This document shows, one piece after another, positions 31,292 to 39,210 of a stretch of 39,388 nucleotides of DNA. The stretch is from an uncultured Mollicutes bacterium (GTDB lineage: Bacteria; Bacillota_I; Bacilli_A; Acholeplasmatales; Anaeroplasmataceae), in the NCBI GenBank assembly GCA_947174785.1, contig CAMWKG010000016.1:1-39388 (forward strand), written 5' to 3'. The position numbers and the translations under genes are program-made. Position 1 is the first letter of the stretch; each line of letters opens with the position of its first letter. Under the pieces are notes generated by a model. It did not search any database and was not told where the DNA came from. It saw only the letters and a program-made list of their open reading frames with translations.

Positions 31292-32158
31292 TTATTTTCC
31301 TATATGACAAATGGCAACCATACCTGGACCTGTATGAGCTCCAATAATTGGACATAAGGTGGTATGTTTAATCTCAACATTAGGAAATTCTTTTTTCACT
31401 TCTGCATCTAAAGCTAAAGCAAGATCTCTTGCATCGGCATCACAAATATAAACAGTTTTAGTCAATTCTTCATTATAGCTTGCTTTGAAATATTCAAACA
31501 ATGCATGAACTGCTGCCTTATTTCCATGCTTTTTAGCAATCGTTGCAAGATGTCCTGTTTCATCAATTTTTAAAATAGGTTTAATATTTAACATAGAACC
31601 CACTACTGCAGTTGCAGAGCTTACTCTTCCACCACGCTTTAGATACATTAAATCCTGAACTAAAAACCAATGCTTTATCTTTGGTACCAATGCCTCAATT
31701 GCATTTTTATTTTCCTCAATAGGCATCCCTGCCTCACGATTTTTTAAAGCCTCTTCTATAAGTACACCCATACCACCTGTCGCACCCAAAGAGTCCACAG
31801 GATAAACATCTAATTCAGGATACTTTTCTTTTAAGCTTTCCTTTGCTAGACAAGCAGCACTGTAAGTAGAGGAAAGTCCACTAGATAAGCATAAATAAAG
31901 CACAGAATATCCTTCTTTTAAATATGGTTCAAAATACTCCTCATAAAGATATGGGGTAATTTGAGAGGTCTTAGTCAAATCTCCTTTTCTTTGTCCATCA
32001 TAGAACTTTTTCATAAGTTCATCGCTTTCTGGACCATAAGAGGTACGCATTTCTTCTCCTAAGGAATATTGCATAGGGATAAATTTCAACCCCCATTTTT
32101 CTATAGACTCAGGAAGAATATCTCCTGATACATCCATTAAAATAACATAATTACTCAT
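31292..32158 (-). CDS. DegV family fatty-acid-binding protein, copy 1
   Basis: A soluble protein of 288 residues. DegV proteins bind a fatty acid and serve as the substrate carrier of fatty acid kinase (FakB) in Bacillota, so lipid head-group recycling or incorporation of exogenous fatty acids is the likely role. Motifs seen are LMDVSGDI, TSQITPYLYEEYF, LYLCLSSGLSSTY, YPVDSLGATGGMG, QDLMYLKRGGR and the C-terminal PIIGAHTGPGM, all typical. The ATG at 32158 follows AGGAG at a 9-base spacing, and the paralogue has the same start. It is about 70 percent identical by eye to the second copy. Confidence 0.88.
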   Translation of the reverse strand: MSNYVILMDVSGDILPESIEKWGLKFIPMQYSLGEEMRTSYGPESDELMKKFYDGQRKGDLTKTSQITPYLYEEYFEPYLKEGYSVLYLCLSSGLSSTYSAACLAKESLKEKYPELDVYPVDSLGATGGMGVLIEEALKNREAGMPIEENKNAIEALVPKIKHWFLVQDLMYLKRGGRVSSATAVVGSMLNIKPILKIDETGHLATIAKKHGNKAAVHALFEYFKASYNEELTKTVYICDADARDLALALDAEVKKEFPNVEIKHTTLCPIIGAHTGPGMVAICHIGK

Positions 32159-32196
32159 ATTCATTCACTCCTAAAAAATATATCAACTTCTTACAT

Positions 32197-32225
32197 ATTT
32201 TACATTATAAAAAGAGTTTATGCAA
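32197..32225 (-). promoter_or_regulatory. Promoter of DegV copy 1
   Basis: On the minus strand TTGCAT (32220-32225), a 17-base spacer and TAAAAT (32197-32202). The -10 and the following leader are shared with DegV copy 2. Confidence 0.55.
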
Positions 32226-32229
32226 CTCT
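32213..32229 (-). terminator. Terminator of DegV copy 2
   Basis: AGAGTT (32213-32218), a 5-base loop and AACTCT (32224-32229), followed by TTTTTATAA on the minus strand. Confidence 0.65.
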
Positions 32230-32249
32230 CTTTATCATTTTCAATTTAA

Positions 32250-33116
32250 CTATTTACCTACATGGCTTAAGATAAGCATACCAGGACCTGTATGAGCTCC
32301 AATGATTGGAGATAAAGTGGTTTGCTTAATTTCTATATTAGGGAATTCCTTTAAAATCTTTTCAGCTAAAAGATCCCCTAAATCCTTGCAATCTGCATTA
32401 CAAATATAAACTATACTTGGAGCAGTAGGGTCATAGTATTCTTTAAAATAATCGATTAAGGCTTGTACAGCCATCTTATTTCCACGTTTCTTAGCAATCG
32501 TAGTAAGCTTACCTTGATCATCAATTTTTAAAATAGGCTTAATGTTCAGCATAGTACCAAACACTGCAGTGGTAGCACTGATTCTTCCACCACGCTTAAG
32601 GTACTTCAAATCTTGAACTAAAAACCAGTTTCTTTGTCTTGGAATTAAAGATAACAAATCATCTCTATTTTCTTCAATGCTTAAGCCCTTTTCACGATTT
32701 CTCAATGCAATTTCTGCTAAAACTCCCATACCACCTGTGGCAGCTAAGGTATCAATAGGATAAACATCTAATTCTGGATATTTTTCCTTTAAGCTTTCTT
32801 TAGCTAAGCATGCAGCACTATAAGTTGAAGACAACCCACTAGATAAGCATAAATATAACACAGAATATCCATCCTTTAAATAAGGCTCAAAATATTCTTC
32901 ATATTGAAAAGGGGTAATTTGACTCGTCTTAGTCAAATCTCCATTTCTTTGTCCATCATAAAATAATTTTAAAACATCCTCTGGTTCAGGACCGTTGGAG
33001 GTACGCATTTCTTCTCCTAAAGAATATTGCATAGGGATAAACTTTAAATCCCATTTATCTACAGATGCTTGTTCAATATCACCAGAAACATCCATAAGTA
33101 TAACATATTTGCTCAT
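32250..33116 (-). CDS. DegV family fatty-acid-binding protein, copy 2
   Basis: The 288-residue paralogue of the DegV gene downstream, with the same length and the same motifs (LMDVSGD, TSQITPF, LSSGLSSTYSAACLAKES, LKYLKRGGR, SPIIGAHTGPGM). The ATG at 33116 has GGAG eight bases before it; two ATGs upstream (33122 and beyond) lie in or near the ribosome site. It lies 79 bases after murD. Differences from copy 1 are concentrated at surface positions and in the second half, suggesting a different fatty-acid preference. Confidence 0.88.
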   Translation of the reverse strand: MSKYVILMDVSGDIEQASVDKWDLKFIPMQYSLGEEMRTSNGPEPEDVLKLFYDGQRNGDLTKTSQITPFQYEEYFEPYLKDGYSVLYLCLSSGLSSTYSAACLAKESLKEKYPELDVYPIDTLAATGGMGVLAEIALRNREKGLSIEENRDDLLSLIPRQRNWFLVQDLKYLKRGGRISATTAVFGTMLNIKPILKIDDQGKLTTIAKKRGNKMAVQALIDYFKEYYDPTAPSIVYICNADCKDLGDLLAEKILKEFPNIEIKQTTLSPIIGAHTGPGMLILSHVGK

Positions 33117-33154
33117 AATCATTTCTCCTTGCAAAATATATCAATTTCTTACAT

Positions 33155-33195: not shown

Positions 33196-34422
33196 TTATT
33201 CTAGGATTTTCATCGCAATTTCGTTAAAATATTTCCCTCGTTCTATATAATTCTTAAAATGATCAAAGCTCGCAAACATAGGAGAAAATAAAATAATTTC
33301 TTCTTTTCTATCTTGATAAGCTTTTATAAAGGCCTCATCTAAAGAATCAAAGGTAAGACACTCTATTTCGTTTTCTTTCATATAGCTTTTTACCTTTTCC
33401 TTAGTTTGACCATAGGCATACACCCTTTTTAATTTAGGCAAGGCACTCTGCAAGCAAGCTAGATTCTCCTTACGATCATACCCTCCACAAATAAGCTCTA
33501 CCGCATCAAAGCATTCTAATGCTGCCATTGTTGAATATGGATTTGTACTTTTAGCATCATTATAGATAAAATCATTAATTTTAGTCAAACGATATTCTAC
33601 CTCTTCAAAGGTCTTTAATTGCTCCTTAATGACTCTTGGAGATATCCCTTTTACCAAAGATACTGCTGAGATAGCAGCCATCACATCCTCTAATAAAAAT
33701 GGCTTATCTATTAGATTTTGTTCTATCTTCATTATTTTCTTTTTATTATTATATATGTATCCATCATGAATATAGCATTTTGCTAAATAAGAGTTTTTAG
33801 AAAATGAAATTCTTTCTGACTCAATAGACTTCACTATATCTCTAAGAATAGGATCATCTAAATGATAAATTGTATAGTGATTAGGACTTTGGTATTTGCA
33901 AAGATTTGCCTTGCTATCCACATAATCCTTATAAGTCGCATGATGGTCTAAATGGCAAGGATGAGCGTTTAATAAAACACTTATATTGAAATCCAATCTA
34001 CTCATTTCAAGCTGAAAGCTAGAAAGCTCAACAACATATATATCTGCCTTAGGATGCTCAACTAAAGCCCTACATACACTATATCCAATATTGCCACAGG
34101 ATACAGCATCATACTTTGCAGATAAAATATGAGTAATCAAAGAAACGGTTGTAGTCTTTCCATTACTTCCAGTAACACCAATATAAAACTTCTTTCTTAG
34201 CATATAGGCAAGTTCAATATCCGTAATAACTTGAATTTTACATTCTAAAAATTTTTGAATGACAGGCTCAAATACTGGAATACCTGGGGCCTTTACCACA
34301 AGGTCATAATTATAATCTGTAACTTCATTTAAATTTAAATACTCATACTCTATTTGTTCTTCTTCCAACAATAAAACAACACCATCATTAGCTACGCCTT
34401 TCCCTAGAACTAAAATTTTCAT
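33196..34422 (-). CDS. murD: UDP-N-acetylmuramoylalanine-D-glutamate ligase MurD
   Basis: Cytoplasmic ligase of 408 residues that adds D-glutamate to UDP-MurNAc-L-Ala. The N-terminal nucleotide-binding fold (ILVLGKGVANDG) is followed by the ATP loop GVTGSNGKTTT, VELSSFQLE, a NAHPCHLDHHATYKDY stretch that resembles the Gram-positive form (HLDYH in Bacillus), and the C-terminal domain with YNDAKSTNPYST and CGGYDRK. The ATG at 34422 follows AGGGGTGTTACT; an upstream start at 34446 has no ribosome site. No other dcw-cluster gene adjoins it. Confidence 0.95.
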   Translation of the reverse strand: MKILVLGKGVANDGVVLLLEEEQIEYEYLNLNEVTDYNYDLVVKAPGIPVFEPVIQKFLECKIQVITDIELAYMLRKKFYIGVTGSNGKTTTVSLITHILSAKYDAVSCGNIGYSVCRALVEHPKADIYVVELSSFQLEMSRLDFNISVLLNAHPCHLDHHATYKDYVDSKANLCKYQSPNHYTIYHLDDPILRDIVKSIESERISFSKNSYLAKCYIHDGYIYNNKKKIMKIEQNLIDKPFLLEDVMAAISAVSLVKGISPRVIKEQLKTFEEVEYRLTKINDFIYNDAKSTNPYSTMAALECFDAVELICGGYDRKENLACLQSALPKLKRVYAYGQTKEKVKSYMKENEIECLTFDSLDEAFIKAYQDRKEEIILFSPMFASFDHFKNYIERGKYFNEIAMKILE

Positions 34423-34480
34423 AGTAACACCCCTATATATAAGCATACGAGGAAATGGATTGTTTTATGTAATAAAAAAA

Positions 34481-34549: not shown

Positions 34550-35647
34550 CTAGTATATAGAAGCAAAATGACAATCTATCATTTTGCAATCTTGTTCCGG
34601 GATTTCAATATAACCACACAATGCACCTAAACAAGTATCACTTTTGATATTAGTTTTTACATAGCATTGTTGAACAACTGAACCTATAGGTTGAATAGCA
34701 TGATCAACTACACCAACTATGCCACCTTTACCATAACTACTTGTGACATCTGGATTAATATTTTCTAAATTGCCTATAAAAATATTTTTAATGAAACTTG
34801 ATTCAGATGCCCCACCTACTAAGCCTCCAACCCTATTCTTTCCAGCAATATTCCCTTCTACACTACAATTCTTTATTGCAGAAAAATGTGAATAGCCAGC
34901 AATGGCTCCTATGGAATAATATTGAAAATCTTCATTAATGTTCCATAAGGAAACATTACACAACTTAAGCCCATCTATGTAAGCAAGACTTAAGCCATTA
35001 AATAGTCCAAAGTTAATGTGCTTGCTTGAACTCAATGCTGGAGAATGCAAATTATAAATTGTATATCCATCAGGATTTATCAATAGCCCTTCAAACGCTT
35101 TTTCTTTTGATAAAGGCTCCCATTCTTCAGAGGATAAATCTATATCATTTTTCAATATATATTGCCCATTATATTTTATTGCTTTTAAATCATCAACACT
35201 ATGAATCTCTTCTAAAGCATTAGGATCATAACAAGACACCATACCTATCCATAGCATTTGAGATATTTTCTTATCCCAAATAACACGGGCAATGATTTCG
35301 AAATTTCCTAAAGAATTAACAACAATTTTATTTTGAGATACTTTGTATTCATTATAATTGGTCAAGACAAACAATTCATAGGTATAATCCTTAATTGTAT
35401 TCCGGACATAAGTATGAGATTGTGTATCCTTCTCACCTGTATAATAGCTAATTTCACCCAATACTTTTTCCACATCTACTATAAATTCTTCACCCTTTTT
35501 GACCAACTCAGTGAATCGAACACAATTCTTATATTCAACATTGATTTCCTGATAATCCTTATAATTTTGTCTTGGTTTACTACAACCTGCCATAGCTAAA
35601 ATGAATATCAAAATGGATAATAAAAACAGTAAACTTTTTTTCTTCAT
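34550..35647 (-). CDS. GLUG-repeat lipoprotein
   Basis: An exported lipoprotein of 365 residues. The ATG at 35647 (GGGAG upstream) gives a basic N-terminus, a hydrophobic stretch and the lipobox LAMAGC, with the lipid-bearing cysteine near residue 21. Residues 22-160 are an unrecognised soluble region. Then comes a DIDLSSEEW entry strand and several GLUG-type turns (FGLFNGL, IGAIAGY, VGGLVGGASESSFIKN, GGIVGVV, LGALCGY) that form a beta-helix in other surface proteins. The function is likely binding of a polymer or a wall component. It is next to the hydrolase fusion and may share its substrate. Confidence 0.75.
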   Translation of the reverse strand: MKKKSLLFLLSILIFILAMAGCSKPRQNYKDYQEINVEYKNCVRFTELVKKGEEFIVDVEKVLGEISYYTGEKDTQSHTYVRNTIKDYTYELFVLTNYNEYKVSQNKIVVNSLGNFEIIARVIWDKKISQMLWIGMVSCYDPNALEEIHSVDDLKAIKYNGQYILKNDIDLSSEEWEPLSKEKAFEGLLINPDGYTIYNLHSPALSSSKHINFGLFNGLSLAYIDGLKLCNVSLWNINEDFQYYSIGAIAGYSHFSAIKNCSVEGNIAGKNRVGGLVGGASESSFIKNIFIGNLENINPDVTSSYGKGGIVGVVDHAIQPIGSVVQQCYVKTNIKSDTCLGALCGYIEIPEQDCKMIDCHFASIY

Positions 35648-35699
35648 ATATTTTTCTCCCTTTACTATCATTAGATTTAAAACTGCCTCAGAATATTAA

Positions 35700-37775
35700 C
35701 TAATCTATTTGATAATCCGAAATCAATACATTTCCTTTTAGAGTATCATCCCAGATAGCTTCATTAGCAAAACGAATACTTCTAATTCCACCATCTTTAA
35801 AATCGTCTGCTAAAATGAAATATATTTTATATTCACCTGAAGCAATGTTCTTTTTAGATACTTCAAAATTCAAGTGGCTCATATCTACGCTTTCAAATTC
35901 AAAATGATAGGTATGCTCTTTACTTTGAAATACTATATAAGCATTTTTATTTTTTAGAAGATTTCCAAAACCAACATTGATTACATTGAGTTTAAAGCTC
36001 ATTTTATTTCCATCATCCTTATAGATGAGATTTTCTAAAACAAAGCGATAGCCCAAATGATTCTTGATATAACTGAATTCTGTACTCTTCTTATATAAAG
36101 GATCAGAGCCTGTATATTTATTATCCTGCCAACGTTTAACAACTTGGTCATTCCAAAGCAAATTCAAATAGCTTAAATGAAGCTTATACATTTCCTCTAC
36201 AGCGTTATTTAATTGATTATAACTACTCCCTGGAACAGTTACCTCACCGCCATAGGATGTTGTTTCATTGATTTTGCTCAACCAAGCAACCTCTACCTCT
36301 CGATTATCATAAGTACCTAAATCATTTCCTGAACCTAAATATCCATCATTATAAACTCCTAAACGGCAATTAGGAATATTAAATTGATCCAAGGTGGAAA
36401 GTGTATAGCCATAGTAGCTATATAAAAATTTTGGACGTCTTAATAATAGCTTTAAAGTCTTTGGTAATACCTTCAAATAAGCATCAATGAGTTTATTATA
36501 GGTTTCTTGATTGGCTATCTTACTAGTATGCATCTCTCCCCAAGGACCAACAAGACCACATTCTACTGCTGTAATCATTTTTTCATATTTCACAAATAAA
36601 GATTGAAGCGATTCAATATGCTTTACCATCATAGCTATTTCTGGCTCTATATCCTTAGATCCATTAAACCCTGGGTCATAAGCGAACCTAACAATCACTG
36701 AGCATGAGGCTTCATCCATTTTATGAAAAACCTCATCTAACCCGGCTAGCATTGCCGAAGTGAATTCCATATCTTTTGAGCCATTTACCTTGCCACTAAA
36801 GGCTGAAACATCAATTCTCAAATGGAGAAGTGCATTATATTTCAAATAATTTTTACTAACATCAGAAACACTATCTGTCTTACATTTAATATATACAGGT
36901 TCATAGAATCCACAATCAGGATTTGAAAATTCATCTATAGATTCCTTATACGTAATCATTTCATTAGAACCCATATTCTCTAAAATAAACGAAACTGTTT
37001 CTTCAATTTGTTGTTCATTTGTAATGGTCGGTGTGCCATCTCCTTTTTGAGCTCCATAGGAACCAAAGAATGCGTGACATCCACCTCTTATTACATACTC
37101 ATTATAGTGATTAGGAAGTTTAGAAAGACTTTCCTCATACTTCTTTCTATTTAAAACTCTATCATATTCTCCATATATTGATAAAACCTTTAAATCCGTA
37201 TCAGACAAATCTACAGTAGAATAGGCAGCTAGTAGGATTAATCCATCATACTCCTTACTATGCTTTGCAATATAGGATGCAGCCATAGAACCTCCTAAAG
37301 AGTGTCCTGCCATATACCAATGTTCTACTTCAAATTTCTCTTGAATTCCATCAGCAGCATTTGAATTTAAAACTGCTAAACGGAATGGCATTTCACATAA
37401 AATGCATAAAATTCCTTCACGTGCAAGACTTTTTAACAAAGGCGCATATGCCTTAGCATCTACTTTTCCTCCTGGATAAAAAATTATTCCTGTATCATAT
37501 ACTTCTGGTTTAAAAACATAGTAATTTTTTTCATGAGAAACTTCTACTATTTCATTTGATTTCAATTCTTCCTTTGCATAAGAATTGGCGGAATAATATA
37601 TATTCACATAAATTGTAAGAGCAATAAATATAGCTAGAATAACTCCTAAAATACTTCCTAAAATAATCCATAGCTTTTTATGATGCTGAACCTTCTTATT
37701 CTTTCTTTTTTTATTATTCTTGTTTCTTTTGGTATTTTTTGTATTTTTAGTGTTTCTTTTAACTTTCTGTGCCAT
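35700..37775 (-). CDS. Membrane-anchored alpha/beta-hydrolase fused to DUF4874 and DUF4832
   Basis: A 691-residue multi-domain protein. A very basic N-terminus (about 1-33, with repeated NTK and KNK) precedes one membrane segment (about 36-58), so the rest is outside. An alpha/beta-hydrolase domain (about 65-270) has AGHSLGGSMA with nucleophile S159, an acid candidate D205 (GEYDRV) and H234 (GGCHAFFG). A second part starts with EFSNPDCGFYE (about 282), typical of DUF4874, and contains GLVGPWGEMH (E414); DUF4832 follows with YNDGYLGSGNDLGTY and the C-terminal beta domain. These last two resemble a glycosidase with a carbohydrate-binding end. The start at 37775 has AGGAG upstream and overlaps the MATE gene by 17 bases. 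Activity unknown. Confidence 0.75.
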   Translation of the reverse strand: MAQKVKRNTKNTKNTKRNKNNKKRKNKKVQHHKKLWIILGSILGVILAIFIALTIYVNIYYSANSYAKEELKSNEIVEVSHEKNYYVFKPEVYDTGIIFYPGGKVDAKAYAPLLKSLAREGILCILCEMPFRLAVLNSNAADGIQEKFEVEHWYMAGHSLGGSMAASYIAKHSKEYDGLILLAAYSTVDLSDTDLKVLSIYGEYDRVLNRKKYEESLSKLPNHYNEYVIRGGCHAFFGSYGAQKGDGTPTITNEQQIEETVSFILENMGSNEMITYKESIDEFSNPDCGFYEPVYIKCKTDSVSDVSKNYLKYNALLHLRIDVSAFSGKVNGSKDMEFTSAMLAGLDEVFHKMDEASCSVIVRFAYDPGFNGSKDIEPEIAMMVKHIESLQSLFVKYEKMITAVECGLVGPWGEMHTSKIANQETYNKLIDAYLKVLPKTLKLLLRRPKFLYSYYGYTLSTLDQFNIPNCRLGVYNDGYLGSGNDLGTYDNREVEVAWLSKINETTSYGGEVTVPGSSYNQLNNAVEEMYKLHLSYLNLLWNDQVVKRWQDNKYTGSDPLYKKSTEFSYIKNHLGYRFVLENLIYKDDGNKMSFKLNVINVGFGNLLKNKNAYIVFQSKEHTYHFEFESVDMSHLNFEVSKKNIASGEYKIYFILADDFKDGGIRSIRFANEAIWDDTLKGNVLISDYQID

Positions 37776-39141
37776 CACTAACAACTCCTATATTACCTTT
37801 ATTATACTCCAATTTTCGATAAGTTTTAATAACTAAAATTACATTTATTGCAAAAATAATAATTTCAGTAATAAGCATTGTATACCAAATAATCGAAAAG
37901 CCAAACACTGCTGGTAAGAAAAATAATAAAGAGCAAGATACTACAAATCCTCTACATATAGATACTACAAATGCAAAGTGTGCCTTTAATATAGATTGTA
38001 GATAATATGTTGTAAACACATTAAAGCATAAAAATATAAAGCTTAAGAAATACTTTCTTTCAATAGAATTACATAGTTTTAAAATAAGAGAGTCTTTTTC
38101 TACACTCAAAAATATACATAATACTTCTTTAGGAAATAATTCTAAAAGTAAAACTGCTATGAAAGAAATAATGCAACAAGAAATAATACCATACTTCAAA
38201 AATTTTTTTACACGGTCCATTTTACCAGCTCCATAATTTTCAGAAAGTAATGGCTGACTTGCCTGACCTACAGCATAGCCTAAGGATTGAACTAACGCAA
38301 CGATATTACAAATTACTCCATAAATTGCAAGAGTTGCAGTTTCTTCTTCCCCGTCTGTATAACTAACAATTTGATTATTAAATAGAATTACCAATACTCC
38401 CATTGCAATATCTAAAACAAAGGATGGAATACCCACCTTGATAATTTGTAAAAGAGTCCTTTTGAATTTCTTTATTTTCACAAATTTTATTTGTTTTTTC
38501 TTTGAAAAAAAGTGTGTACATAAAATTAAAAAGCTAACAAATTGACCTAGCATTGTTGCAAGACCTGCACCACGAATTCCCATCTTACAGCCAAAAACTA
38601 AGCTAATATCTAATACAATATTTGTAGCACCACCACAAATCACTGCTATGGTTGCGCGCATAGGTGCATTATCATTTCTTAAGAAACAAGTAAAAAACTG
38701 TCCCAAAAGAAATACTGGTAAGGATATCTTCATCCAGAAGGTATACCTTTTGGCATAGGCAAAGATTGTAGCATCACTTGCACCAAAAAATCTTAACAAA
38801 GGATTTTCAAAGCAATTAATTAAAATCCACAAAATAGCTGTAATACAAATAGCTCCTATAAAAGCAGCAGTATAAAATACATTCCCTTCCTCTATCTCAT
38901 TTCTTCCTCTTCGCTCTACCATAAGTGTAGCACCACCAATGCCAAAGAGTAATCCAAAGCTAAAAATAATTGTCCATAGTGGCATAACTACTGCAAGGGC
39001 AGCTCCACCAACCTCTCCTTCATATTGACCAACACATAAGGCATCAACTAAAGAATAAATACTCATAACTATTGCACTTCCAAAGGAAGCCAATAAATAT
39101 TTAGAAAATAAGTTTATAGGTTTAGCTTCTGTAATTGACAT
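37759..39141 (-). CDS. MATE family efflux transporter
   Basis: A 460-residue membrane protein with about twelve hydrophobic segments, of the MATE/MVF type: LFSKYLLASFGSAIVMSIYSLVDA at the start, GGAALAVVMPLW, FGIGGATLMVERRG, AFIGAICITAILW, a LRNDNAPMRAT turn in the middle and QASQPLLSENYGAG. Such proteins export drugs or metabolites using Na+ or H+. The ATG at 39141 has AGGAGGTATATT upstream; the reading frame stays open to 39207, but this part lies in the leader. It may be coupled to the hydrolase fusion, which starts inside its last codons. Confidence 0.9.
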   Translation of the reverse strand: MSITEAKPINLFSKYLLASFGSAIVMSIYSLVDALCVGQYEGEVGGAALAVVMPLWTIIFSFGLLFGIGGATLMVERRGRNEIEEGNVFYTAAFIGAICITAILWILINCFENPLLRFFGASDATIFAYAKRYTFWMKISLPVFLLGQFFTCFLRNDNAPMRATIAVICGGATNIVLDISLVFGCKMGIRGAGLATMLGQFVSFLILCTHFFSKKKQIKFVKIKKFKRTLLQIIKVGIPSFVLDIAMGVLVILFNNQIVSYTDGEEETATLAIYGVICNIVALVQSLGYAVGQASQPLLSENYGAGKMDRVKKFLKYGIISCCIISFIAVLLLELFPKEVLCIFLSVEKDSLILKLCNSIERKYFLSFIFLCFNVFTTYYLQSILKAHFAFVVSICRGFVVSCSLLFFLPAVFGFSIIWYTMLITEIIIFAINVILVIKTYRKLEYNKGNIGVVSDGTES

Positions 39142-39181
39142 AATATACCTCCTATAGAAAAGAAAAAGGCTGAATAAAATT

Positions 39182-39195
39182 CTAGGCGCACCTAG
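39182..39195 (-). other. Short hairpin in the MATE leader
   Basis: CTAGG (39182-39186) and CCTAG (39191-39195) with a 4-base loop. On the minus strand AATTTTATT follows. It may be an attenuator or part of a regulatory leader; not enough for a riboswitch call. Confidence 0.4.
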
Positions 39196-39210
39196 CATCT
39201 TATCCAACCA

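Follow-up and report, generated by a model that had tools for sequence, protein, structure and literature searches.

A tethered chain of a predicted serine esterase and a predicted barrel glycosidase in one genus of Anaeroplasmataceae

We found that a single gene in the window, the whole 39,388-nt stretch of DNA analyzed here from an uncultured Mollicutes bacterium, joins an alpha/beta-hydrolase to a DUF4874/DUF4832 module behind one membrane helix, and that this fusion is shared within its genus. Its product is best explained as an outward-facing single-pass protein, predicted to be a tethered serine esterase plus a barrel glycosidase that probably serve the same or an associated glycan, an explanation that we regard as evenly poised between right and wrong.

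The gene occupies a single minus-strand open frame, running from an ATG at 37775 to a stop codon that ends at 35700. An AGGAG-like stretch precedes the ATG, and an alternative mechanical TTG start at 37784 would add 3 aa. A Pfam profile search bore out the domain content and order proposed in an earlier sequence-only reading: Abhydrolase_5 (PF12695; 163.8 bits versus a cut-off of 27), then DUF4874 (103.5 versus 30.1), then DUF4832 (137.2 versus 29.2). The features of the chain are as follows.

35700..37775, minus strand: fusion gene, a single ORF of 691 aa from ATG, with homologues in the genus
37674..37775, minus strand: basic N-terminal tail, residues 1-34, with 16 K/R and no D/E
37593..37673, minus strand: single membrane helix, residues ~35-61, by hydropathy (helix 18-60 in the full-length model)
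37005..37490, minus strand: alpha/beta-hydrolase domain (Abhydrolase_5), residues 96-257, by Pfam, with solved relative 9eh6
37299..37301, minus strand: S159, nucleophile candidate in GHSLGG, 43/43 in the family alignment
37161..37163, minus strand: D205, putative triad acid, 41/43 in the family alignment (one N, one E)
37074..37076, minus strand: H234, putative triad base, 43/43 in the family alignment
36429..36923, minus strand: DUF4874 by Pfam, first part of the modeled barrel
36534..36536, minus strand: E414 in GPWGEMH, acid/base candidate after barrel strand 4 of the model, 80/80
35763..36365, minus strand: DUF4832 by Pfam, residues 471-671, remaining barrel and beta-sandwich by model fold
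36243..36245, minus strand: E511 in GGE, nucleophile or base candidate on barrel strand 7 of the model, 80/80

Consistent with the single anchor expected earlier, only one strong hydrophobic segment was found, directly behind the basic tail, with a 19-residue mean of 2.9 from residue 37 and a best value of 1.28 past residue 70. By the positive-inside rule, under which a basic tail is expected to be cytoplasmic, the tail would lie inside, the one helix would cross the membrane, and both enzyme domains would face the outside of the cell.

The triad S159, D205, and H234, read as intact from the letters, held up in an alignment of 43 hydrolases, 40 of which are neither this fusion nor a cut copy of it. 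All three residues align with identical residues of the solved 9eh6, which Foldseek ranked first for the full-length model (E 4.4e-10) and which VIA matched to that model with Z 11.1 and rmsd 3.9 over 161 aligned residues. The pLDDT of the model is low in the hydrolase half because only six sequences cover it. An active site in this half is supported by homology and by purifying selection on its sequence.

The DUF half was modeled alone with 80 sequences, giving a pLDDT of 95.9 and a pTM of 0.93. By our count on the model, it has eight barrel strands (residues 289-298, 316-322, 359-365, 401-405, 443-445, 472-479, 509-512, and 536-538) that span both DUFs, so the Pfam boundary between DUF4874 and DUF4832 falls inside the barrel, and a beta-sandwich follows from about residue 578. 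In the model, the two families are therefore one (beta/alpha)8 barrel and then a beta-sandwich, not two domains. Strands 4 and 7 are the sites of catalytic glutamates in many retaining and beta-amylase-like glycosidases, the so-called 4/7 rule. DSSP of the model puts E414 after strand 4, where a catalytic acid would be expected, and E511 on strand 7, making both candidate catalytic residues. We take GPWGEMH to resemble the beta-amylase acid motif. Both glutamates are invariant in the 80-row alignment, from which L095 was excluded for its late ORF start, and both are also kept in two streptococcal-type sequences, L026 and L028.

All 50 structures shown by VIA for the barrel bear titles of glycosidases, namely GH5 enzymes and beta-amylases. 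The top one had a Z of 12.6 and an rmsd of 4.5 across 241 aligned residues at 11% identity, and the beta-amylases 1vep_A (Z 11.9, rmsd 4.4, 237 aligned) and 3voc (Z 11.8) were tied with GH5 rows. Foldseek matches were modest (TM 0.2-0.4, large rmsd), which weighs against our explanation, and included flavin enzymes built on this barrel as well; function cannot be read from the fold by itself. By sequence, no PDB chain matched the DUF half significantly in a profile search (best E 0.93), and neither the GH14 beta-amylase profile PF01373 nor GH5 or any other clan GH-A Pfam family was listed for the protein at E up to 1; the GH14 profile matched neither its own genome nor any of 195 genomes. Since the fold is silent on function, the predicted glycosidase activity leans on that reported for the homologue SIR_1591, and homology and purifying selection support an active site in the barrel. 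The glycosidase-like module of the sequence-only reading thus stands as one glycosidase-type barrel plus sandwich with a homologue reported active, but that reading had missed the second invariant glutamate, E511.

SIR_1591 of S. intermedius is described as combining a transmembrane helix with a TIM barrel and a DUF4832 sandwich; the purified protein, added from outside, disperses preformed Pel aggregates and is reported to be an active glycoside hydrolase (PMC12345266). It shares with the window protein the barrel and sandwich, the N-terminal membrane helix, and a predicted surface location, but as described there it has no alpha/beta-hydrolase (PMC12345266). It also belongs to a pel cluster, whereas PelG was found in none of 55 genomes of the window's family, its own included (control positive in 1/14). 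This absence argues against self-made Pel as the substrate, PelG being the one pel gene searched. In place of SIR_1591, we compared the pel-accessory-type L026 and L028, which are 27-28% identical to the window protein and have VTC-like and DUF4956-like neighbors (by eye). These resemble the published pel-accessory cluster, where DUF4832 genes adjoin genes for CotH, polyphosphate polymerase, and DUF4956 in the vicinity of pel clusters (PMC7112168).

DUF4874 was present in 6 of the 11 genus genomes searched, the window's genome counted, and in all six the hydrolase lies in the same frame. The five other fused proteins are 84, 80, 79, 63, and 55% identical to the window protein, and S159, D205, H234, and E414 are invariant across the six. 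Close relatives thus keep the fusion rather than two separate genes, and its in-frame recurrence in five other genomes of this Anaeroplasmataceae genus rules out an assembly error as its source. The fused loci L031-L035 come from the same genomes as G004, G001, G007, G010, and G008 and are not extra evidence; G003 was left out of the count, its hydrolase half running off the contig end after an efp-like gene.

Outside the genus, the halves were found apart. A genome scan confirmed 350 DUF relatives, the best 80 of which were retained, and an HMM of the hydrolase half matched 5 of these 80 DUF-pair loci, all five in genus genomes. At the other 75 (flanks of at most 6 kb, often shorter) it was silent, which weighs against our explanation; a tandem arrangement of hydrolase and DUF genes was accordingly not seen among these 75, and the DUF pair, as proposed from the sequence, mostly occurs without this hydrolase. 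In other genera of the family (44 genomes), the DUF pair occurs in 7, with a visible N-terminus in six of them that lacks the hydrolase and starts lipobox-like (by eye), the seventh copy being truncated where its contig stops. The hydrolase half occurs in 16 of the 44, always in frames of 247-290 aa. Both halves occur together in 3 of the 44, on different contigs, versus ~2.5 expected, i.e., at chance level. Across the phylum, 51 of 392 genomes gave a hydrolase match; 13 were weak or partial (<56 bits) and were not used, and the other 38 comprised 3 fusions, 1 hydrolase joined to a multi-pass membrane part (G151), and 34 frames of 233-290 aa, two of which (G195 and G078) have stops inside the match. 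A would-be ninth phylum match to DUF4874, G426, scored 18.9 bits, below the cut-off, inside a gatB-like ORF (by eye) and was set aside. At L173:502-2190, from a different family of the class, this hydrolase domain is attached to a multi-pass membrane part, which makes a second type of hydrolase fusion.

Stand-alone, membrane-anchored hydrolases such as L120, L121, and L156, and the solved 9eh6 ("AroC"), have the same domain with GHSLGG and GGxH, many being 39-54% identical, but carry no DUF4874/DUF4832. Stand-alone DUF4874-DUF4832 proteins (L036, 53% identical) have the same barrel, sandwich, and E414/E511, but a lipoprotein-like or otherwise secreted start in the hydrolase's place, and some carry a dockerin (L089) or LRR_5 (L098) instead. 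One such protein, L100:2452-5145, has an extra N-terminal region that is weakly GH18-like (18.9 bits, below the cut-off of 29.6) and is perhaps a two-glycosidase chain. Chains that pair an esterase with a glycosidase are familiar in themselves: the carbohydrate-esterase/glycoside-hydrolase fusions of plant-fiber degraders likewise unite the two, but draw on other families on both sides and are mostly secreted or cellulosomal, unlike the single N-terminal helix here. The combination is thus new at the level of the genus, built from known kinds of enzyme, and the accessible portion of the literature naming DUF4874 or DUF4832 does not describe it.

The fusion is old on the scale of the genus and selected on both sides. 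Between the window gene and L014, the hydrolase has a dN/dS of 0.084 and the two DUF stretches have values of 0.076 and 0.112, indicating that neither half is decaying; the ratios are rough, dS being near or >1 in most pairs, which tempers our explanation. All fused DUF halves group in a single clade (support 0.94) whose nearest relative is the stand-alone L036 of the sister genus (support 1.0), a topology that fits one fusion event as far as the DUF-half tree goes. The hydrolase tree left the fused group unresolved (support 0.34), a point against our explanation. In the sister genus, two genomes (G024 and G032) have the hydrolase, and one (G019) a DUF protein, in the slot 3' of a gltD-like gene, among 30 loci viewed of 45 matches, a pattern noticed post hoc. 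It hints that both halves may once have occupied one place, though a hot spot could account for it too. The slot, with a ~279-aa gene also adjoining, lies at L148:4973-7917, L151:5249-8281, and L021:4407-8058, the DUF copy being a lipoprotein.

These data bear directly on the strongest alternative, in which the fusion only lends the glycosidase a membrane anchor and each active site has its own substrate, unrelated to the other's. The glycosidase, a lipoprotein in sister genera, would here ride on a hydrolase whose membrane anchor predates the fusion. An N-terminal hydrophobic anchor is indeed present in the family's stand-alone hydrolases (by eye), the lipobox-like starts of the six family DUF proteins fit as well, and the chance-level co-occurrence of the separate halves favors this account as it weighs against ours. 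However, the hydrolase triad and its dN/dS are as constrained as the glycosidase half, although this alternative permits both to be active, and the common gltD slot hints, post hoc, at a link between the halves. We consider it a possible explanation, but not a likely one.

The neighboring features in the window are as follows.

37759..39207, minus strand: MATE-family transporter ORF, a neighbor sharing 17 nt with the fusion gene
34550..35671, minus strand: GLUG-motif lipoprotein-like ORF (GLUG 33.3 bits), a neighbor judged separate
33196..34446, minus strand: murD, a neighbor, next downstream gene in four relatives with the fused gene

The sequence-only reading saw overlapping genes and a possible three-gene module of MATE, fusion, and GLUG genes. 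The MATE overlap is real, but the GLUG ORF starts 28 nt past the end of the fusion gene, and the module did not survive a survey of the neighbors in relatives. MATE flanks four of the six fused genes, lying upstream with an overlap of 17 nt in the window and of 23, 35, and 62 nt in three relatives, and is missing beside the fused genes of two more distant relatives. GLUG, which was compared with the regions around fusion-related loci only (12 + 10 regions), stands between the fusion gene and murD in the window and was not found there in the four of five fused relatives with a visible interval. In all four fused relatives whose next gene is visible, murD follows directly, 111, 233, 95, and 43 nt away. 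G005, which has neither half in its genome, has the MATE end and murD 110 nt apart with nothing between, which makes the fusion gene an accessory in a MATE-murD interval. Stand-alone DUF genes likewise showed no common partner: 116 of 125 immediate neighbors were scanned, and the commonest family among the matches listed occurred in 4/116, another point against our explanation. Two further observations concern this region. In G006 (L152:2644-6978), a 1,444-aa secreted-looking protein lies directly upstream of murD, where others carry the fusion gene. Behind murD, two tandem DegV-family genes (window 31292-33134), ~72-74% alike by comparisons of relatives, are retained as a pair in G002, G004, and G005.

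The Anaeroplasmataceae are held to be wall-less; a murD match was nevertheless present in 10 of the 11 genus genomes, and the window copy looks intact. The protein may then remodel the cell's own wall or surface polymer, and its place before murD in the four relatives, and before GLUG and then murD in the window, would suit this role. So would the mur genes reported for 40-60% of Anaeroplasmataceae genomes in a published survey (PMC10868615). Against it, murD is also found in relatives without the fusion (G005, G009, and G006), and the closest stand-alone DUF proteins lie in other gene contexts, so that the tie to murD is one of adjacency alone. Such trimming of the cell's own envelope seems improbable to us. 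That only one half is catalytic, with the barrel (or the hydrolase) serving as a binding or structural module, is very improbable: E405 is invariant (80/80) here but Q in both streptococcal-type sequences, so the active sites differ in detail, yet the triad and E414/E511 are conserved throughout the family alignments, and SIR_1591 is reported active (PMC12345266).

In the tethered esterase-glycosidase that we favor, an esterase-type serine alpha/beta-hydrolase would sit next to the membrane and remove an acyl ester, for instance an O-acetyl group. Beyond it, the (beta/alpha)8-barrel glycoside hydrolase with its C-terminal beta-sandwich would cut a sugar chain with E414 and E511, bringing both activities near the cell surface, perhaps to serve one acylated glycan. 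Both the activity of each half and the ester and glycan substrates are predicted from homology, and a substrate common to both halves, as in the one-step action suggested by the sequence-only reading, is a guess, the weakest link of this explanation. PelA pairs a deacetylase with a hydrolase. More speculatively, and with a low likelihood in our estimate, the window protein could be a genus-specific tethered esterase-glycosidase that deacylates and cuts a Pel-like or other acylated aminosugar polymer of neighbors or the host, a serine-esterase counterpart of the PelA pairing in an organism without pel genes, as judged by PelG.

The fusion joins two little-understood families in one chain, so an assay on either half would inform both, and the model shows two Pfam DUFs as one barrel-plus-sandwich unit. 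If the coupling is real, acylated glycans would be a likely target of DUF4874/DUF4832 enzymes, a group with 350 relatives confirmed in one scan.
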